A stretch of DNA of 64,000 bases from Siphonobacter curvatus (GTDB taxonomy: Bacteria > Bacteroidota > Bacteroidia > Cytophagales > Spirosomataceae), in assembly GCF_002943425.1 (NCBI RefSeq), contig NZ_PTRA01000004.1:310001-374000 (forward strand), given 5' to 3'. Of this stretch, positions 1-8,606 are shown one piece after another (the first letter of the stretch is position 1; every line of letters starts with the position of its first letter). The position numbers were made by a program, and so were the translations under genes. The notes under the pieces are model-generated. The model made no database searches, was not told the DNA's origin, and saw only the letters and a program-made list of their open reading frames with translations.

Positions 1-2
1 AT

Positions 3-239
3 TTGCATAAATTAAACCGTCATGTCGTTCAAGTGGATGCCCAAACAGGGGATTTACTTATCCCCTTTAGTCTACCACTACCCCAGCACTTTGCTCGGGC
101 CTTTACTTTGATGAGTGGTAAAGCTCCCGATGTAATACGGCGAACTGATATTCACAGTAGTAAATCCATAAAGTACAATCGGTATGAGCATTCTGGTAAT
201 TTATTAGCCAATAACTTTTTAACCCGGTTGGGCCAATAA
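3..239 (+). CDS. C-terminal end of an unidentified protein, cut by the window edge
   Basis: The reading frame is open from the first bases of the window and stops at TAA 237-239, so this is probably the last ~78 residues of a longer protein. I do not recognise the family. The tail holds the stretch LPLPQHFARAFTLMSGKAP and ends in a basic, polar segment. It lies only 12 bases before the ATG of the giant helicase on the same strand, so it is probably the upstream member of that operon. By position it could be one of the poorly characterised subunits of Druantia or DISARM-like systems, but nothing in the visible residues proves that. Confidence 0.55.
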   Translation: MHKLNRHVVQVDAQTGDLLIPFSLPLPQHFARAFTLMSGKAPDVIRRTDIHSSKSIKYNRYEHSGNLLANNFLTRLGQ

Positions 240-251
240 CAACGTTTGATT

Positions 252-3200
252 ATGATTGATCCTATATTTGCCTTTGATACCATACGGGAAAATTTTATCA
301 AATATGTCAGAACCGCTTTTCGCACTCGATTTGCAAGTGTAGAATCTGAACGAAACAGTTTGTTACAAAATGAAGGGTTATTTTATCGTGAACCCTGGAT
401 TGAATCACTGCCTGATTATACAAAAAGTCGTAAAACTGTTTCTCAATTAACGAGTGATGATCTTCCAACACTTTCGGATAGACAGCAAACAATCTTTCAA
501 CAATTAGTTAGTAAGGGATTATTTCCTAATACAAATGAGTTGTATAAGCATCAGACACACATGCTTAAGACAGCCCTGCTAGGCGAGAAACACTGCGTCA
601 TTACAACAGGAACTGGTTCTGGAAAGACGGAATCATTTCTATTGCCTTTGTTTGCACAGTTGTCAAAGGAACTAGCTCAATTTCCGCCTGTCAACACTTA
701 TGACCAAAACACTTGGTGGAAAAGCTCGGCCGAAGGCGGACTAAGCAATAGCTTATGCGTTGATAAGACTACGTTTATGCTAAGCCCTAGAGCTCAACAG
801 CGGGGTAATGAAAATAGCCAAGTTCGTCCAGCTGCTATGCGAGCATTAATTCTCTATCCAATGAATGCGCTGATTGAAGATCAAATGACCCGTCTTAGAC
901 GAGCACTAGATTCAGATGAAGTGCGAACTTGGCTAGCGGAAACCACACACGGCAATCGTCTATATTTTGGTCGATACAATAGTAGTACGCCTATAGCCGG
1001 TGACCTACAGAAAATTGATGAAAACGGTCAGTGTTTAGTCAACACAGCGAAATTAAAGAGTTTGCGGGAGCAGCTACGGTCAATAGACGATGCTGCTCAA
1101 AAAATAGAGGAGTATATTCTTCATGAAAAACTAGCTGATGAAAATCCACATGAACTGAGGTCGTTTTTTCCTCGGCTGGATGGAGCTGAAATGAGAAGTC
1201 GATTTGACATGCAATGCAGCCCACCAGATATCCTGATTACTAATTTTTCCATGCTAAGTATAATGCTTATGCGGGAAATAGATTCACCTATTTTTGATAA
1301 AACTCGGGATTGGCTAGCTTCTGACAGTAACAATATTTTTCATTTAATAGTAGATGAATTACATCTATATCGAGGCACTGAAGGTACTGAAGTAGCTTAC
1401 TTAATGAGACTTTTTCTTGATCGTTTAGGACTCTCGCCTAATCATCCTCAACTCCGTATTTTAGCCTCTAGTGCTTCAATCGATGATGGAGAAAAAAAAG
1501 CTGAAAGTCAGCAATTTCTTCGCGACTTTTTCGGCACTACCGAACGAGATTTTGAAATTATCAGCAACAAAATAGAAATTGATTCACCTGCTAATTTTAC
1601 TAATTCATTACCCTCCGAGCCATTTATAGCAATAACGGAAGCTTTTGATAGCTTAATACAATCTAGGCTTACTGTTGAAGAGATTAAAAGTCAATCTAGT
1701 TTCAATAGTATAGCTGAACAGGTGGCAAAACAACTTGCGGATTGGGCAGGAATTTCCATAACTTCAAGTGTAGGCATAAAGCAACTATTAGATGTTCTGG
1801 TGAGTCCGTCTTTACAACTTAAAGAACGGCTTCAAGCCGCATGCAATGTTAAAGGGCATTCGCGCGCAGTCGCATTAACCGACCTCAATGGCACATCAGC
1901 TTTTCCAAGTTTTGCTGACCAATTGTTCAGTCGGACTTTAAATTCTGATGTTCAAAAGCTAGCTGTGCGTGGTGTGTTACTATTACGAGGGTTATTAGAT
2001 GAGCAGCCATTTACTAACCAGTTCACAGCGATCAATTTGCCACGCTTTCGGGTGCATTATTTCATCCGTAACATTGAAGGTTTATGGGCTTCAATTAATC
2101 CGAAAGAACAAGCAAGTGAGTTTTTTGATCCAACTCGGCCTATAGGAAGGCTATTTGGTCATTCGCATATTTTGTCCCCAGAGGGAAACCGAGTCTTAGA
2201 ACTGTTGTACTGCGACAACTGTGGTACACTTTTCTTAGGTGGTAGCCGCCTACCCTCCCCGGTAAACAGTGAATTTTACTGCGAAATGCTAGCGGTAAGT
2301 GCTGATATTGATAAGGCTCCTAGCAGAACTGTAAATAAGCTACTTGAAAGCCGGTCATACCAAGAATATGCCGTATTCTGGCCTGAAGGTAGAGGAACAC
2401 ATAATCAAAAATTTATTTCCGAAAATATAAGAAATGAAAAGCCCTATTGGCGGCAAGCCGCTATAGGAAATTGTAACCAGTCTGATTATACAGCTCAGTG
2501 GAAAAAAGCTTCGCTAAATGTCAAAACAGGTGAGGTTAAGAACGAGCATACAGATGCTCATGAGAATCCAGATAATTGGATTAGTGGGTATATGTTCAAA
2601 ATATCTACTAATGCGCAAAGGTCTGACAATATTTATCGACCAGATAGAGATGTCCAAAATGATCTCCAATCTACACATCGAGCTATGCCCAGCGTTTGCC
2701 CCGCTTGTGGCATAACTCACCAAAAGCATAACGCAGCTAGCAAAAAACGTAAGTTAAGTTCAGTAAGAGGATTTCGAACGGGTTTTGCGAAAGCTAGTCA
2801 AACTTTAGCTAAAGAATTGTTGTACCAATTATCTAGTGATGAAAGGCAACGCAAATTAGTCGTTTTCTCTGATAGTCGCGAAGATGCAGCACAAATAGCA
2901 AATGGCATTGAGCGAACCCACTTTACGGATTTGCTTCGTGAATTATTAGTCCGATACCTCAGACAGGAAATATTATTAGGTCGAGAAATATTCAACGCGA
3001 TACAGAATCAGGATCAAAATGCCGTTCAGAAATTAAAGAGAATTAACCAATTGCGATTCGATCAGATTGAAGATTTCATTGATGAAACCAAATTCCTAAC
3101 TAGTACTAATCAGGTTAAACGCAATAAAGCTGAACATGCCCAGCGTGAATTAGCCAGTTTGATTGGTCAAACGATACCAGTTCGTAACCTTGTCGAAGTA

Positions 3201-6200
3201 GCTAATGATCAGACGGAGATGGCTCCACTGGTAAAGGAACTGGTTAAATTAGGAGTGAACCCAGGTGGTAATGATCTTTCTGTTCAATGGGCAACAAAAC
3301 GCGATGGGACAAAGACCAATTGGACAGAGGTTATTGATTTTAACGAGCTTCGATGGAAGGCAAACGCAGATAGAGATTTCCAGCGAGATATTAGTACTAG
3401 CACCTATGACGAGTTAGCTCAAATCTTTTTTGGCAGCTTATTCTATTCTTTAGAATCTGCTGGTTTGGGGTATCTATCAGCAATCTCCACCCCCGATAGC
3501 CCTCAAGATTACCCTGAAATTATTAAGCAAAAGGCCAATAGCTTACCATTAAATAGTCTAATATTCTTGCAAGCAGTTAACAGCACTATTCGATTATTGT
3601 GTGAAGCGTACAAACACAATCATGCTGACCTATTCGATGGCCAAAAACACAGCTTGATCGATTATCAAAGTTTTCCAAAACTTGTTAAAAAATACATCTC
3701 TGAAGTTGCTAAAATTCACAACATAATCGATTTTAGTTTAGGTGATGCCATACATGAAACGCTTAAGGTGCTTGGAATTATTGATGCTGACCCTATATCA
3801 GGTACTTCTATCATTATACAAAGCTTATTTTTAAAAGCAGCTGCATCAGATGATCCAGTTTGGAGTAGTCAGCGTGGTCTAAGGCGGCATTTACATCCAT
3901 CAGCGGGTGTCTGTACATACTCGTTCTCTCATTTACCCACTGACTCAGATACAACTTGCGAGCAACTTTGGCCAGATAACTATTTGTCTTTTCATGCAGC
4001 TGTTGAACAACGTAACCCGTTGCGACTTCATTGTGAGGAAATGACGGGGCAGACAGACAACCCTTTCGAACGTCAACGCCATTTTCGGAATATCATTGTC
4101 AATGAAGAGAAACAGTACCGGAATGTCAAGATGATTGACTTACTGAGTGTTACTACCACACTTGAGGTAGGAGTTGACATTGGTTCACTACAAGCCGTGA
4201 TGCTGGCCAATATGCCCCCTCAACGATTTAACTATCAGCAGCGTGTAGGCCGAGCTGGTCGACGTGGCCAGGCCTATTCGGTAATTTTAACATTTTGCAG
4301 GGGCCGAAGTCATGATGAACATTATTTCAAGTATCCTCATCGAATCACGGGAGATCCACCACCAACGCCTTTTCTAAGTATGGATCAGCCACGTATTGCA
4401 CGACGTATGATTGCTAAGGAGGTTCTTCGTCAAGCATTTGCTGAGACGCAGCTTTTGACTAGCGATGAACGTTTACCTATCAATGTACATGGTAATTTTG
4501 GAGCCGCAGATAATTGGTTAAACCATTATCAGTCTCATATAGCCACCTGGATAAACACTAATTCATCGTCTATCGAAACTATAGTAAAAATGCTGTGGAG
4601 CGGGCCAGATAGTGAGCTTTCCCAACTTATTTGGTGGGCTACAAATAAGGATGGTTTGTTAAAGCAGTTGGATGAAACCATTGCTAATGAAGAGATAGAT
4701 GCAGAACCGCTTGCGGAACGACTTGCTATTGGTGGTTTTCTGCCCATGTTTGGTATGCCAACTGAGCAGAAAAATTTGTTTCATGGTGTGCATAAGAATG
4801 AAGATGACTACGAGCCATTAACAATTGACCGATCTTCTGAACAATCCTTATACGAATTTGCTCCTGGTAGCCAGAAAACAAAAGATAAAGCGATTCATAC
4901 TGTGATTGGCTTCACAAGTAATTATTATTACGGTTTGAAGAAAGGGGACCGGAGTGGGCAAAAAAAATTATTGAACCAAACCTTTGAACCAATCAACGAT
5001 CTAGTAAAGAACGTCTTCTCTGTAAACCGATGGATGGTGAACTGCCAGCTCTGCGGCTATACATACACGCAACTAATGCCCATCACTGAAATGATGTGTT
5101 TGAACTGTGGTAGTGACATTGAACCTCTTAACATTCGCACTCCTCGTGCTTTTCGAACAGACTTGACTGCTGGTCGTGACGATCGAGAATTTACAGATAT
5201 ACAAGTGTCTCGCCCACCAGTTTTGGCACAGTTGAATGATGGGAAGATTGCCCCCGAGCGAGTTGGGAACACTCTACTTAGTATTAGTGAACAGGATTTA
5301 ACCTGGCGCATCAATGATAATGGTGGTCAACGTTTCAAAGGCAAGTTTTATACCACAAGCAATACATTTCCGTTTCAGACACAAGCATTTAAGTTTGATC
5401 TCCAATGGTTGACTGCTGATTTAGAACCAGATATTCAAGGATTTTTAGAATCTCCTAATGGTTACCGAGTACAGTTAACCAATTCCAAAGAAGACCCAAT
5501 AGCTTTAGAAAATGGTATTGCCTTAGGGGTTGGCAAGCGAACCGAACTGTTACAATTATCTCCAAAGACGGTGCCTATAACACTAAATTTGGATATGTTT
5601 CGCATTAATGCAGCTGGTATAAAAGCAGCCTATTTTTCAGCAGCTTTTTTGTTACAACGTACCCTTGCTGATAAATTAGATGTAGATCCTAAAGAAATTG
5701 ATATTGCCGACATAAGTCGAGTTTCGCTACCATACACGATTAACGGAAATCAGGCTTTTTGCGCTCGAATTACTCTAGCTGATGAGCTTGCTAATGGATC
5801 TGGCTTTATTCGCTACCTCTATAGTAATTATAGTGAAATTCTGGATGATATAGTTAATCCAAATAAAACGGAGGGATATACGGGTAAAATAAAATCCGAA
5901 AATCACCGTAAAGGATTAAAAAAAGAACAAATTCTCGCCTGTGATAGTGCGTGTTACGAATGCCTAAAAGTATATAGTAATATGAATTATCACAGTATAT
6001 TGGACTGGCGTTTAGGACTAGCGCTATTGAGATTAATGCAGGATGAGTCTTTTACTGTAGGTACTGATGGGCAGTTTGAAACGCCAGAACTGATCGATTG
6101 GCTAGAAACTGCAACAACTCTACGGGATAACTTATTAGAAATGCTGCCAAACGGAGAATCCGTTGAAATTCAGAGGCTACCTGTTATTCGTTTATCTAAA

Positions 6201-6398
6201 AACAGAAAACAATCTGATTGGATAGCCGTAGTCCATCCATTCTGGCGTATAAATGACTATAAAGGAAAGGACTGGCTGGCTGGAGTTTTAGCCGATTTAG
6301 AGGTAAAGGCCACTCAAACAGAAGGTCACGTCCATTTTGTAAATACCTTTGATTTGCTCCGACGCATGGGTTGGTGCTATAAAGAACTCCAAGTTTAA
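252..6398 (+). CDS. Giant DEAD/DEAH-box helicase with DUF1998-type C-terminus (DruE / DrmA-DrmB-like)
   Basis: Predicted ATP-driven SF2 helicase of about 2048 residues, probably the motor of an anti-phage system. Visible motifs, numbered from ATG 252: Walker A GTGSGKT at 120-126, DELH box at 368-371 followed by LYRGTEGTEVAYLMR, SDSRED at 873-878, VGVDIGS near 1306 and QQRVGRAGRRGQ at 1329-1340. Cysteine pairs C654/C657 and C816/C819, a four-cysteine ribbon (C1598, C1601, C1616, C1619), and a C-terminal C-x3-C-x2-C cluster (C1897, C1901, C1904) suggest several zinc sites; the last cluster, followed by LKVYSNMNYHSILDW, is typical of DUF1998 proteins such as MrfA, DrmB and DruE. An in-frame TTG at 246 is also possible; ATG 252 is preferred, though no clear Shine-Dalgarno is seen. 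Its TAA overlaps the next gene's ATG (TAATG). The DruE-like label is inference from size and architecture. Confidence 0.88.
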   Translation: MIDPIFAFDTIRENFIKYVRTAFRTRFASVESERNSLLQNEGLFYREPWIESLPDYTKSRKTVSQLTSDDLPTLSDRQQTIFQQLVSKGLFPNTNELYKHQTHMLKTALLGEKHCVITTGTGSGKTESFLLPLFAQLSKELAQFPPVNTYDQNTWWKSSAEGGLSNSLCVDKTTFMLSPRAQQRGNENSQVRPAAMRALILYPMNALIEDQMTRLRRALDSDEVRTWLAETTHGNRLYFGRYNSSTPIAGDLQKIDENGQCLVNTAKLKSLREQLRSIDDAAQKIEEYILHEKLADENPHELRSFFPRLDGAEMRSRFDMQCSPPDILITNFSMLSIMLMREIDSPIFDKTRDWLASDSNNIFHLIVDELHLYRGTEGTEVAYLMRLFLDRLGLSPNHPQLRILASSASIDDGEKKAESQQFLRDFFGTTERDFEIISNKIEIDSPANFTNSLPSEPFIAITEAFDSLIQSRLTVEEIKSQSSFNSIAEQVAKQLADWAGISITSSVGIKQLLDVLVSPSLQLKERLQAACNVKGHSRAVALTDLNGTSAFPSFADQLFSRTLNSDVQKLAVRGVLLLRGLLDEQPFTNQFTAINLPRFRVHYFIRNIEGLWASINPKEQASEFFDPTRPIGRLFGHSHILSPEGNRVLELLYCDNCGTLFLGGSRLPSPVNSEFYCEMLAVSADIDKAPSRTVNKLLESRSYQEYAVFWPEGRGTHNQKFISENIRNEKPYWRQAAIGNCNQSDYTAQWKKASLNVKTGEVKNEHTDAHENPDNWISGYMFKISTNAQRSDNIYRPDRDVQNDLQSTHRAMPSVCPACGITHQKHNAASKKRKLSSVRGFRTGFAKASQTLAKELLYQLSSDERQRKLVVFSDSREDAAQIANGIERTHFTDLLRELLVRYLRQEILLGREIFNAIQNQDQNAVQKLKRINQLRFDQIEDFIDETKFLTSTNQVKRNKAEHAQRELASLIGQTIPVRNLVEVANDQTEMAPLVKELVKLGVNPGGNDLSVQWATKRDGTKTNWTEVIDFNELRWKANADRDFQRDISTSTYDELAQIFFGSLFYSLESAGLGYLSAISTPDSPQDYPEIIKQKANSLPLNSLIFLQAVNSTIRLLCEAYKHNHADLFDGQKHSLIDYQSFPKLVKKYISEVAKIHNIIDFSLGDAIHETLKVLGIIDADPISGTSIIIQSLFLKAAASDDPVWSSQRGLRRHLHPSAGVCTYSFSHLPTDSDTTCEQLWPDNYLSFHAAVEQRNPLRLHCEEMTGQTDNPFERQRHFRNIIVNEEKQYRNVKMIDLLSVTTTLEVGVDIGSLQAVMLANMPPQRFNYQQRVGRAGRRGQAYSVILTFCRGRSHDEHYFKYPHRITGDPPPTPFLSMDQPRIARRMIAKEVLRQAFAETQLLTSDERLPINVHGNFGAADNWLNHYQSHIATWINTNSSSIETIVKMLWSGPDSELSQLIWWATNKDGLLKQLDETIANEEIDAEPLAERLAIGGFLPMFGMPTEQKNLFHGVHKNEDDYEPLTIDRSSEQSLYEFAPGSQKTKDKAIHTVIGFTSNYYYGLKKGDRSGQKKLLNQTFEPINDLVKNVFSVNRWMVNCQLCGYTYTQLMPITEMMCLNCGSDIEPLNIRTPRAFRTDLTAGRDDREFTDIQVSRPPVLAQLNDGKIAPERVGNTLLSISEQDLTWRINDNGGQRFKGKFYTTSNTFPFQTQAFKFDLQWLTADLEPDIQGFLESPNGYRVQLTNSKEDPIALENGIALGVGKRTELLQLSPKTVPITLNLDMFRINAAGIKAAYFSAAFLLQRTLADKLDVDPKEIDIADISRVSLPYTINGNQAFCARITLADELANGSGFIRYLYSNYSEILDDIVNPNKTEGYTGKIKSENHRKGLKKEQILACDSACYECLKVYSNMNYHSILDWRLGLALLRLMQDESFTVGTDGQFETPELIDWLETATTLRDNLLEMLPNGESVEIQRLPVIRLSKNRKQSDWIAVVHPFWRINDYKGKDWLAGVLADLEVKATQTEGHVHFVNTFDLLRRMGWCYKELQV

Positions 6399-7486
6399 TG
6401 ATACAAACCATTATTCCTGTTAAACCTGAGCCTATTCCTCATATTACACCCAGCAACGCTACAACAATAATGCAATGCGCTTATCAAATAATAGTTCGTA
6501 GATCTACAAAAAAGCATTTTCTCCCACCATCAGCCACGATGGAGTTTGGAACTGCTATTCACAAAGCGTTTGAATTATCTGTTAAACAGTCTTTTACTAA
6601 TCGACATGACGTTGAGCGATTTGTCGATAATATTGTGCACCAAGCTGAAGAAAGTTGTCAAAAACGTGGATATGACTTTTTAACTCCTTTTGACAACCAG
6701 GTTAGAAACTTTGGCGTTAAGCGAGAATTAGCGATACGCAAAATTGAGTCTACAACCTCTTTAACAAACGGATACTCTTCAACTACCCCAACTCTCAAGT
6801 CCCATAATTATATAGAAGTAGAAAGAGAGTTTACCTCTAAACGCTTCAAGATACAGGGCAAGATAGATGCTATACTTCATAGACCAGATGGTGATGTATT
6901 GGTTGACTTTAAAAGTGGATCTATTTATGATAAACATGATAATGGAGAACGTTCATTAAAAATAAGTTATGAAAATCAACTCAAACTGTATGCTTATTTA
7001 TACTATGAAGCGACGGGAAAGCTTCCTATTGGTATTTGTGTAGAAACTTTAACGGGAAGTGTTGTTAATCTTAGCTTTACATTGGAACAATGTGTAGAGT
7101 ATGCTCAAAACCTTGACGAACAATTAAGCAAAGTAAATCAGCTTATACATACAAATCAGATAGATGCTTTAAAACCAATTAATATTGATGTTTGCCAGTG
7201 GTGCTCAGTCAGACCAGCTTGTAATTTTTATCAACCGGTTAATAAAAGAACTGGATTTGTTGATTTATTTGGACGATTGACAGCTATAAATAAATTACTC
7301 AATGGCAACTATTCAATATCCTTGACCAATTTCAATGGCACTACCCGAATTGTAGGTATTTTAGCTATTGACGCAGAAAAATTACAAATAGATTATGAAT
7401 ATAGATTATTTAATTTGAGATCTATAAAAGTTAGTCTTCTATCCTTCACTACATCCTCATCAATTTTTGAGGTTACACCTTACTAA
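6398..7486 (+). CDS. RecB/Cas4/AddB-type PD-(D/E)XK nuclease with probable Fe-S cluster
   Basis: Predicted DNA nuclease of 362 residues. The RecB-family motif set is present: GTAIHKAFE with H55, GKIDAI with D157, LVDFKSG with D170 and K172, and YENQLKLYAYLYYE around Q194. C27 near the N-terminus, together with C266, C269 and C275 (C-x2-C-x5-C), matches the layout that holds a 4Fe-4S cluster in Cas4 and AddB nucleases. The gene starts inside the helicase stop codon (TAATG), which suggests translational coupling and a shared complex or pathway. No CRISPR array or cas1/cas2 is present, so a Cas4 role in spacer acquisition is unlikely; a role with the helicase in degrading foreign DNA is inferred. 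About 70 residues follow the cysteine cluster and have no recognisable domain. Confidence 0.85.
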   Translation: MIQTIIPVKPEPIPHITPSNATTIMQCAYQIIVRRSTKKHFLPPSATMEFGTAIHKAFELSVKQSFTNRHDVERFVDNIVHQAEESCQKRGYDFLTPFDNQVRNFGVKRELAIRKIESTTSLTNGYSSTTPTLKSHNYIEVEREFTSKRFKIQGKIDAILHRPDGDVLVDFKSGSIYDKHDNGERSLKISYENQLKLYAYLYYEATGKLPIGICVETLTGSVVNLSFTLEQCVEYAQNLDEQLSKVNQLIHTNQIDALKPINIDVCQWCSVRPACNFYQPVNKRTGFVDLFGRLTAINKLLNGNYSISLTNFNGTTRIVGILAIDAEKLQIDYEYRLFNLRSIKVSLLSFTTSSSIFEVTPY

Positions 7487-8606
7487 ATTGCGTAAAATAA
7501 AATCCTCACTACCCTTCCCGATTCCTGTTTTGTCCTTTTTTACAGGAGGTGGCTTTATGGATATTGGCTTTGAAACAGATCAATTGTTTAAAGTTATCTG
7601 GACAAATGAAATAGATGCTTCTATTTGCAAATTATATGCTGAAGGAATGTCAGCTTGGCACGGAGCAAATTGTCAAATCACAAATCAGCAATCGATTGAA
7701 ACAATTTCATCTATCAATATTCTTAATGAAGCGCGCCAACAAATAGGCTTCCAAAATATTTTTGGTATTATAGGTGGCCCCCCATGCCCCGATTTTAGTG
7801 TTCGGGGTAGTCAGATGGGCTTTAATGGTGATAGAGGGCGATTAACGATTATATTCATTGAACGCATTATGGAATTGATGCCTGCCTTTTTCGTTATTGA
7901 AAACGTAAAAGGAATTATGTCACCCCGTAATCAACCAATGTTAAATGAGCTAATTGCGTACTTACGTACTAGATTCATAGTTGCAGCACCCATACAAGTG
8001 AACGCACTTGATTTTGGTGTACCACAACACCGAGAACGAGTATTCATTATCGGATTTAATAGAACACATATTTCCGATGAACAAGCTGCACATTTTTTAC
8101 GGACTACAATGTTACAAAATCGACCTTTTCCAAATGCCCTCCAGACTTACAATTGGCCTCGTAATAATCGCTGTAAAAACAAGGATAGGGAAACTCCACC
8201 ACCGATGCTATGTACTGGGCCGTATTTGATTGATAATGAAAATGATATCCCAAATGCTAATGAGTATTTTGCTCTACATTCATCACAGCAAAAAGTAGAG
8301 AATACTTTAGAAGGTGACATGAGTAGATCGTCATTTCGTCGATTGCATCGTGGTCAATTTAGCCCAACAACCTGTTATGGCAATAACGAGGTTCATCTAC
8401 ATCCTTATCTTCATCGTCGACTATCTGTACGTGAAGCATTGAGACTTCAATCCGTTCCAGATGCATATATTTTTACTACAAAGGGTAACTACTCTAAGAA
8501 ATTTAAGCTAATTGGCAATGGTGTACCAGTGGCGCTTGGGCAAGCTATTGCCAAATCAGTTTGGCAAACGCTCGATTTGTTTATGACTAGGTCCTCACTT
8601 AAATGA
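7467..8606 (+). CDS. C5-cytosine DNA methyltransferase
   Basis: Predicted S-adenosylmethionine-dependent DNA (cytosine-5-)methyltransferase, up to 379 residues. Conserved motifs in order: motif I VLSFFTGGGFMDIGFE near residue 25, motif IV GGPPCPDFS with catalytic C107, motif VI ENVKG, motif VIII QHRERVFIIGF, and motifs IX-X REALRLQSVPDAY ... LIGNGVPVALGQAIAKS. There is no ATG before motif I: the first ATG, at 7557, would cut through it, so the start must be a rare codon, TTG 7467 or TTG 7488. With TTG 7467 the gene overlaps the nuclease by 20 bases; with TTG 7488 it begins 1 base after the nuclease stop. The likely role is to mark self DNA for the helicase/nuclease pair, as DrmMII does in DISARM and DruM in Druantia type II; this is inferred from context. 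It is the last intact gene of the operon. Confidence 0.9.
   Translation: MRLHLTKLRKIKSSLPFPIPVLSFFTGGGFMDIGFETDQLFKVIWTNEIDASICKLYAEGMSAWHGANCQITNQQSIETISSINILNEARQQIGFQNIFGIIGGPPCPDFSVRGSQMGFNGDRGRLTIIFIERIMELMPAFFVIENVKGIMSPRNQPMLNELIAYLRTRFIVAAPIQVNALDFGVPQHRERVFIIGFNRTHISDEQAAHFLRTTMLQNRPFPNALQTYNWPRNNRCKNKDRETPPPMLCTGPYLIDNENDIPNANEYFALHSSQQKVENTLEGDMSRSSFRRLHRGQFSPTTCYGNNEVHLHPYLHRRLSVREALRLQSVPDAYIFTTKGNYSKKFKLIGNGVPVALGQAIAKSVWQTLDLFMTRSSLK

Follow-up and report, generated by a model that had tools for sequence, protein, structure and literature searches.

A Druantia operon of Siphonobacter curvatus with a Cas4-like nuclease and a C5-cytosine methyltransferase: a probable subtype between types II and IV

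A 64,000-nucleotide stretch of the Siphonobacter curvatus genome (contig NZ_PTRA01000004.1, G000:C4:310001-374000; hereafter the window) opens with a set of genes that join a giant helicase to a nuclease and a C5-cytosine DNA methyltransferase, and this arrangement raises the question of whether the locus represents an undescribed defence operon, as the original prediction held, or a member of a known family, and of how its components may cooperate. Its resemblance to a defence operon was upheld, and the operon is probably directed against viruses. The claim that it is undescribed did not stand: all four proteins match Druantia models of PADLOC, in which the nuclease family already bears the name DruK, and a system undescribed at the family level was therefore rejected. 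The operon is Druantia at that level, although it fits the published definition of neither type II nor type IV, and we assign a probability of approximately 0.6 to the reading that it represents a distinct subtype, DruFL-DruE-DruK-DruM, which lies between types II and IV and would work by sensing, translocating, cutting and marking.

The open reading frames (ORFs) of the window and its left flank confirm four co-directional genes on the forward strand, in the order DruFL-DruE-DruK-DruM. Only the last 239 bases of druFL lie inside the window (1..239), and the left flank was read into the host contig to complete this gene (L002:15408-18239, G000:C4:307408-310239), which encodes DruF and DruL fused into one protein of 943 residues; the suggestion that the cut upstream gene may hold a missing subunit was thereby borne out. 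No additional ORF lies between it and druE (252..6398), which encodes a YprA-family superfamily 2 (SF2) helicase of 2048 residues. The start of druE is most likely the ATG at 252, since all 7 aligned sequences share M3 of the 2050-residue mechanical ORF, which opens at TTG 246. It is followed by druK (6398..7486; 362 residues), encoding a RecB/Cas4-family PD-(D/E)XK nuclease, and by druM (7467..8606; ~379 residues), whose TTG start is uncertain. The junction DNA displays an overlap of 1 base between druE and druK and of 20 bases between druK and druM.

DruFL matches the PADLOC model DruF4 (PDLC00054) over residues 1-590 (E 2.5e-53) and DruL4 (PDLC00056) over residues 620-911 (E 1.3e-40); a fold search of PDB and BFVD returned no match at E below 0.001, and its alignment (A4) holds 22 of the 25 listed sequences. 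DruE scores 1802 bits against DruE2 and 1628 bits against DruE4, compared to at most 291.6 bits for DruE3, and its SF2 motifs are intact (TGTGSGKT 121-128, DELH 370-373 and QRVGRAGRRG 1332-1341, in the numbering of the 2050-residue ORF). The protein had earlier been described as a DUF1998-type helicase; its match to the DUF1998/MZB model is weak (PF09369, E 0.04, below cut-off), but that to DruE is unambiguous. Structures of DruE homologues have been solved in two sets, one comprising 9wae and six other entries (1249 bits against the DruE profile) and the other 9tu7 and five others; these are labelled only ‘Helicase’ and ‘DEAD/DEAH box helicase’. The C-terminal domain of DruE contains conserved DWR, HPLW and FNLxRR-type stretches across 46 loci, both with and without DruK, and by inspection of these 46 loci no D-(E/D)xK pattern or PD-(D/E)XK triad was observed. 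This agrees with the account of types I and II in the available portion of PMC12458937, where the corresponding domain is called an inactivated Vsr fold.

The nuclease, DruK, matches the PADLOC model PDLC00059 (E 4.2e-15, residues 15-340) and contains, as had been predicted, the full RecB motif set (GxxxH, D157, D170-x-K172 and QxxxY) and four Cas4/AddB-like cysteines (C27 and C266-x2-C269-x5-C275). An alignment of 43 DruK sequences shows no variation at C27, G51, H55, E142, D157, D170, K172, Q194, Y198, C266, C269 and C275 among the 42 copies that do not run off a contig; the remaining copy (L036), truncated by its contig end, has the same residues as far as its sequence extends. Judging from their placement, the four cysteines would hold an iron-sulphur (Fe-S) cluster. 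An AlphaFold2 model of DruK, built from 31 sequences (alignment A3, the window DruK and 30 of the 36 listed sequences), has a mean pLDDT of 92, and its best Foldseek match in the PDB is the Argonaute-associated Cas4-family protein ACE1 (9iac, E 3.3e-7), with modest TM-scores of 0.38 by query and 0.48 by target; Dna2, AdnAB and AddAB are the other top matches by E-value. An OB-like C-terminal domain is suggested by additional matches, to HIN-200 and telomere-end-binding proteins, and by the many strands at the C-terminus of the whole-protein model; this tail is missing in three copies, i.e., those of Hymenobacter loci L031 and L032 and that of L015, which groups with them. The 50 best fold matches consist for the most part of RecB/Cas4-type nucleases and OB-fold DNA-binding proteins, and none of these 50 is labelled as a type II restriction enzyme. 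DruK thus shares its RecB-type active site and four-cysteine set with Cas4, ACE1, AddB and Dna2, but differs in its OB-like domain, in its score against the Cas4 equivalog TIGR00372 (29.7 bits, cut-off 65) and in its surroundings, no cas or Argonaute gene having been seen within the operon.

The last protein, DruM, is a C5 methyltransferase, as originally proposed, with PF00145 and TIGR00675 above cut-off and M.HaeIII as its best PDB sequence match. Against PADLOC it scores 385 bits with DruM2 (PDLC00030), 285 bits with MTase_II and up to 119 bits with DrmMII. Its target-recognition region is on average 45% identical, compared to 54% for motifs I-VIII, with the boundaries of these regions set by us.

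Where does this operon belong among the known systems? Druantia type II, reportedly described by Doron et al. in 2018, shares with it a DruE2-type helicase, a DruF homologue and a DruM2-type methyltransferase, whereas here no DruG was found, an extra DruK is present and the distribution is mostly among Bacteroidota. Furthermore, DruM is encoded last here, but first in M-F-G-E loci such as L095 and L085 (the DruG model was tested on L095 only). In the portions of the sources available, type II requires DruG and is found only in Proteobacteria (PMC8565338), and is grouped with type I as the fourth CoCoNuT group (PMC12458937). The DruG model PDLC00025 found no match in the genome that holds the window, a result to be read with the knowledge that a divergent DruG could escape a single model and that the control matched in 2 of 14 genomes. 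Type IV, in turn, is defined as DruE and DruF with DruL, without DruM and DruG (PMC8565338, available portion), and this DruE, DruF and DruL core is present here, although DruM is also present and a single protein combines DruF and DruL. Because DruM is present and DruG was not found, the operon fits neither type: the family is catalogued in PADLOC, but the published definitions of types II and IV each conflict with its gene set. The PADLOC-DB models for DruK (PDLC00058-60) are numbered directly after those of type IV, and their inclusion indicates that the makers of this database already knew the family, while the available type IV text of PMC8565338 does not name it. No use of the name DruK with Druantia was found in the literature searched, and no Druantia nuclease of this kind is described in the titles and abstract starts searched, a scope that leaves room for a mention elsewhere. 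Among phage records no DruK was found; two viral contigs gave partial RecB-like matches, with no other operon genes in the stretch covered.

Type III (DruH-DruE) shares the YprA-family DruE helicase, but the nuclease is here encoded by a separate gene, and the DruE of type III carries C-terminal PLD domains (PMC12458937, available portion). Type III was ruled out by the low DruE3 score relative to DruE2 and by the lack of DruH among the PADLOC matches listed for the ten proteins scanned. The DISARM system was also considered, since it combines a YprA/DUF1998 helicase with a C5 methyltransferase, DrmMII being that of class 2 DISARM. However, the helicase and DUF1998 parts are unsplit in the present operon, and its nuclease is of the PD-(D/E)XK type rather than a PLD DrmC; the best DrmA model reaches only 37.5 bits on DruE, and neither DrmB nor DrmC occurs among the matches listed for the ten proteins (the best 25 for two operon proteins), by which DISARM was ruled out. 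The comparison with DruE and DruM made in the original prediction was the right choice.

Is this gene set a stable unit, or a chance arrangement in one genome? In a nuclease-anchored search of 395 phylum-level genomes (E 1e-8), DruK was matched in seven, all of which encode DruFL (or DruF and DruL), DruE and DruK in order, with DruM in six. A profile search of 395 class-level genomes (E 1e-20) returned six matches, i.e., four repeats, G561 (with DruE and DruM) and G510; the last was not counted as DruK, its 945-residue ORF being judged a different protein with no DruE within 1.5 kb on each side. Stand-alone DruK thus directly follows DruE in all eight genomes, seven of which also have DruM, and the possibility raised earlier that the nuclease usually occurs without the helicase is contradicted. 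A DruE-anchored scan then provided the 80 top-ranking matches out of at least 574, a sample biased to relatives of the window DruE; with six other loci and the window's own these amount to 87, or 86 distinct loci once L014, a duplicate of L031, is dropped. In a FastTree phylogeny of DruE (local SH-like support, with a long-branch warning), 33 mostly Bacteroidota loci form a clade with support 99, in which DruK is present in 32 loci, DruM lies no more than 1.2 kb downstream, on the same strand, in 32, and a single ORF encodes DruFL in 30. The exceptions are L033 (Desulfobacterales), which lacks DruK, L041, which lacks DruM, and, as regards the fusion, L015 and L041, with two ORFs, and L034, whose upstream part is not on the contig; DruM is cut in L034, and L036 is cut by a contig end. 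In the 31 loci with both genes, druM overlaps druK in 24 (mechanical ORF starts). Since 31 of the 33 clade loci show druE followed by druK and druM in this order, the arrangement is not due to chance, and the helicase, Fe-S-type nuclease and methyltransferase do constitute one unit, as had been suggested.

Outside this clade the components are combined differently. A second branch of ten loci, Bacillota, archaea and candidate phyla among them, has DruK in seven, L043, where it is split into two short and apparently broken ORFs, being counted as negative. Nine cyanobacterial loci encode DruF-DruL-DruE (one of them fused), with DruK absent, while in L064, L080 and L067 (Acidobacteriota/Gemmatimonadota) DruK follows DruE behind a different upstream pair. 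This pair consists of a DruF-like gene (PADLOC DruF2 on L064) and a gene of 709-793 residues, for which no PADLOC model matched at 1e-5 on L064, the one locus scanned; L064 and L080 also carry a convergent C5 methyltransferase and Vsr. In Paludibacter, a gene for an Mrr_cat-domain nuclease (L021:18252-18959) overlaps the end of druM. On the Meiothermus taiwanensis plasmid NZ_CP021131.1 (L110:10950-12120), an open DruK-like frame lies between a DruE-like helicase and a DruA-annotated gene, with transposase genes nearby on both sides; it is not in the PLSDB gene table, which is incomplete. DruE and DruK thus seem to be paired outside this subtype as well.

The components also change together. 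Pairwise distances in 28 of the 33 clade loci (L070, L015, L041, L033 and L034 were left out) correlate at r 0.96 for DruE-DruK, 0.86 for DruE-DruFL and 0.61 for DruE-DruM (permutation p 0.001 each). A C5 methyltransferase lies within 2 kb on either strand, a limit chosen by us, in 39 of 43 loci with DruK and in 22 of 43 without it (Fisher p 9e-5, kinship ignored). These data bear on the view that DruK and DruM are an ordinary type II restriction-modification pair behind an unrelated helicase. That DruM also matches MTase_II speaks for such a pair, yet DruM2 outscores this model by the bit scores given above, the listed fold matches of DruK include no labelled type II restriction enzyme, and DruK tracks DruE at r 0.96 and adjoins it in each of the eight stand-alone matches; a simple restriction-modification system was rejected on these grounds and is highly improbable.

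How, then, might the four proteins cooperate? The mechanistic Druantia work found in the literature concerned type III, and none was found on types II or IV; the roles considered here are drawn by analogy with type III, the DruE of which is described, in the available portion of PMC13192584, as a helicase-nuclease acting on replication intermediates that contain single-stranded DNA, with DruH as the likely sensor. With median identities among clade loci of 0.30 for DruFL, 0.34 for DruK, 0.52 for DruE and 0.50 for DruM, DruFL and DruK are the fastest-changing components, and DruFL may recognise infection or a state of phage DNA or protein. As its homologues suggest, DruE would load where phage DNA that is being replicated or has been damaged is single-stranded, and would then translocate. 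DruK, with its Cas4/AddB/Dna2-type motifs, Fe-S cysteine set and OB-like tail, would cleave DNA in trans, which is proposed because the DruE C-terminus displays no PD-(D/E)XK triad. It is conceivable, if doubtful, that DruK is instead a resection factor which generates the single-stranded DNA where DruE loads and itself does the damage, in the manner of end processing by AddAB or Dna2. Dna2, AdnAB and AddAB are indeed among its nearest relatives in sequence and structure, the modelled OB-like tail suggests binding of single-stranded DNA, and long single-stranded DNA favours type III DruE (PMC13192584, available portion), but inspection of DruE in this clade reveals no active nuclease motif, so that another cutting activity would be needed.

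In the proposed subtype, DruM would methylate cytosines of the host chromosome, by which self DNA may be spared. Vsr genes near related loci lend support to the first of these steps. They were identified by means of PF03852 in six of ten downstream neighbours scanned (the Pfam scan took ten of the 30 listed neighbouring ORFs, plus L041_14), followed by a profile built from those six, within 1 kb beyond the methyltransferase span, again a limit of our choice. Vsr-type genes occur near 26 of the 86 loci (one, at L056, is an 83-residue fragment), all 26 of which have a C5 methyltransferase within 2 kb, and near none of the 25 loci without one (Fisher p 2e-5, kinship ignored, the Vsr distance being counted from the methyltransferase where present). 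As Vsr repairs T:G mismatches that arise from deaminated 5-methylcytosine, hosts with a linked Vsr gene probably methylate their own chromosome. An unlikely alternative is that DruM is a hitch-hiking or regulatory methyltransferase rather than a self-marker, and that DruFL or DruE discriminates by DNA structure: eight of the nine cyanobacterial loci lack a C5 methyltransferase within 2 kb (seven of the nine lie near a contig end), the DruE-DruM correlation is lower than that of DruE-DruK, and the available portion of PMC13192584 describes type III as consisting of DruH and DruE alone. Against this, DruM follows DruK in 31 of the 32 clade loci that bear DruK, with overlap in the majority as noted above.

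Several observations limit, or weigh against, the proposed subtype and its working. A tree-aware pair test of DruK with DruM yielded six pairs and a median p of 1. Four of the 43 DruK loci (L013, L036, which is cut by a contig end, L041 and L067) lack a C5 methyltransferase within 2 kb, and L033 carries DruM but no DruK, so neither protein may be indispensable. The DruE C-terminus is similar in loci without DruK, which means that DruK fills no gap peculiar to this clade, and the idea that it replaces a nuclease lost only here is unsupported. DruFL has no confident fold match, and its putative sensor role is drawn from its rate of change and from analogy with DruH. Lastly, no Vsr gene was found in the window's own genome.

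In some relatives a further gene hints that methylation may also be read. In L023 (Dyadobacter, L023:17189-17743) and L024 (Niabella, L024:17114-17674), a gene of 184-186 residues between druK and druM matches RE_AspBHI_N (PF18062; E 3.9e-44 and 7.9e-42), which we take to be the 5-methylcytosine-reading half of AspBHI, with the nuclease half absent. An AspBHI-like enzyme with both halves follows druK in L046, and AspBHI-N homologues of 395-418 residues lie near the operon in L025, L040 and L097. No member of the AspBHI-N family was found in the window's own genome or in 148 phylum-level genomes, by a search whose 14 control genomes gave no match either; it did match all five genomes known to hold the family (three Bacteroidota and two Bacillota), each with exactly one copy, sited at the operon (positions converted by us). 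One may tentatively, and with considerable doubt, envisage a modular, methylation-aware Druantia in which DruM is the writer and DruK the cutter, and in which some members employ a stand-alone 5-methylcytosine reader that would gate or steer DruK or DruE by the methylation written by DruM.

The surroundings of the operon, which include a Schlafen-type gene, look like a defence island. Just left of the operon (L002:13883-14918, forward strand) are a 180-residue ORF without match and a 102-residue ORF with a partial AbiD/Abi_2 match, perhaps remnants. Approximately 5-9 kb left of druFL, a three-gene cluster on the reverse strand (L002:6175-10384, G000:C4:298175-302384) encodes an MBL-fold protein, a 792-residue ThiF(E1)/JAB protein and a 233-residue protein that may be membrane-bound, with weak, below-cut-off matches to the NCBIfam ‘6A-MBL’ anti-phage system. 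Further left (L002:2661-4865, forward strand), a 112-residue ORF precedes a Schlafen group 3 helicase-domain protein (PF09848, E 2.8e-101). Rfam gave no match on L002.

The published boundary between Druantia types II and IV fails to describe a supported, mostly Bacteroidota clade. In this clade the separate nuclease gene and the adjacent candidate for self-marking render the questions of what cuts, and of how self is spared, testable gene by gene. The linked genes of the Vsr and AspBHI-reader types are independent hints that cytosine methylation belongs to the logic of the system. If the modular arrangement were true, tasks that a restriction enzyme holds in one chain would be shared out among a writer, a reader and a cutter, as exchangeable subunits grouped around a helicase.

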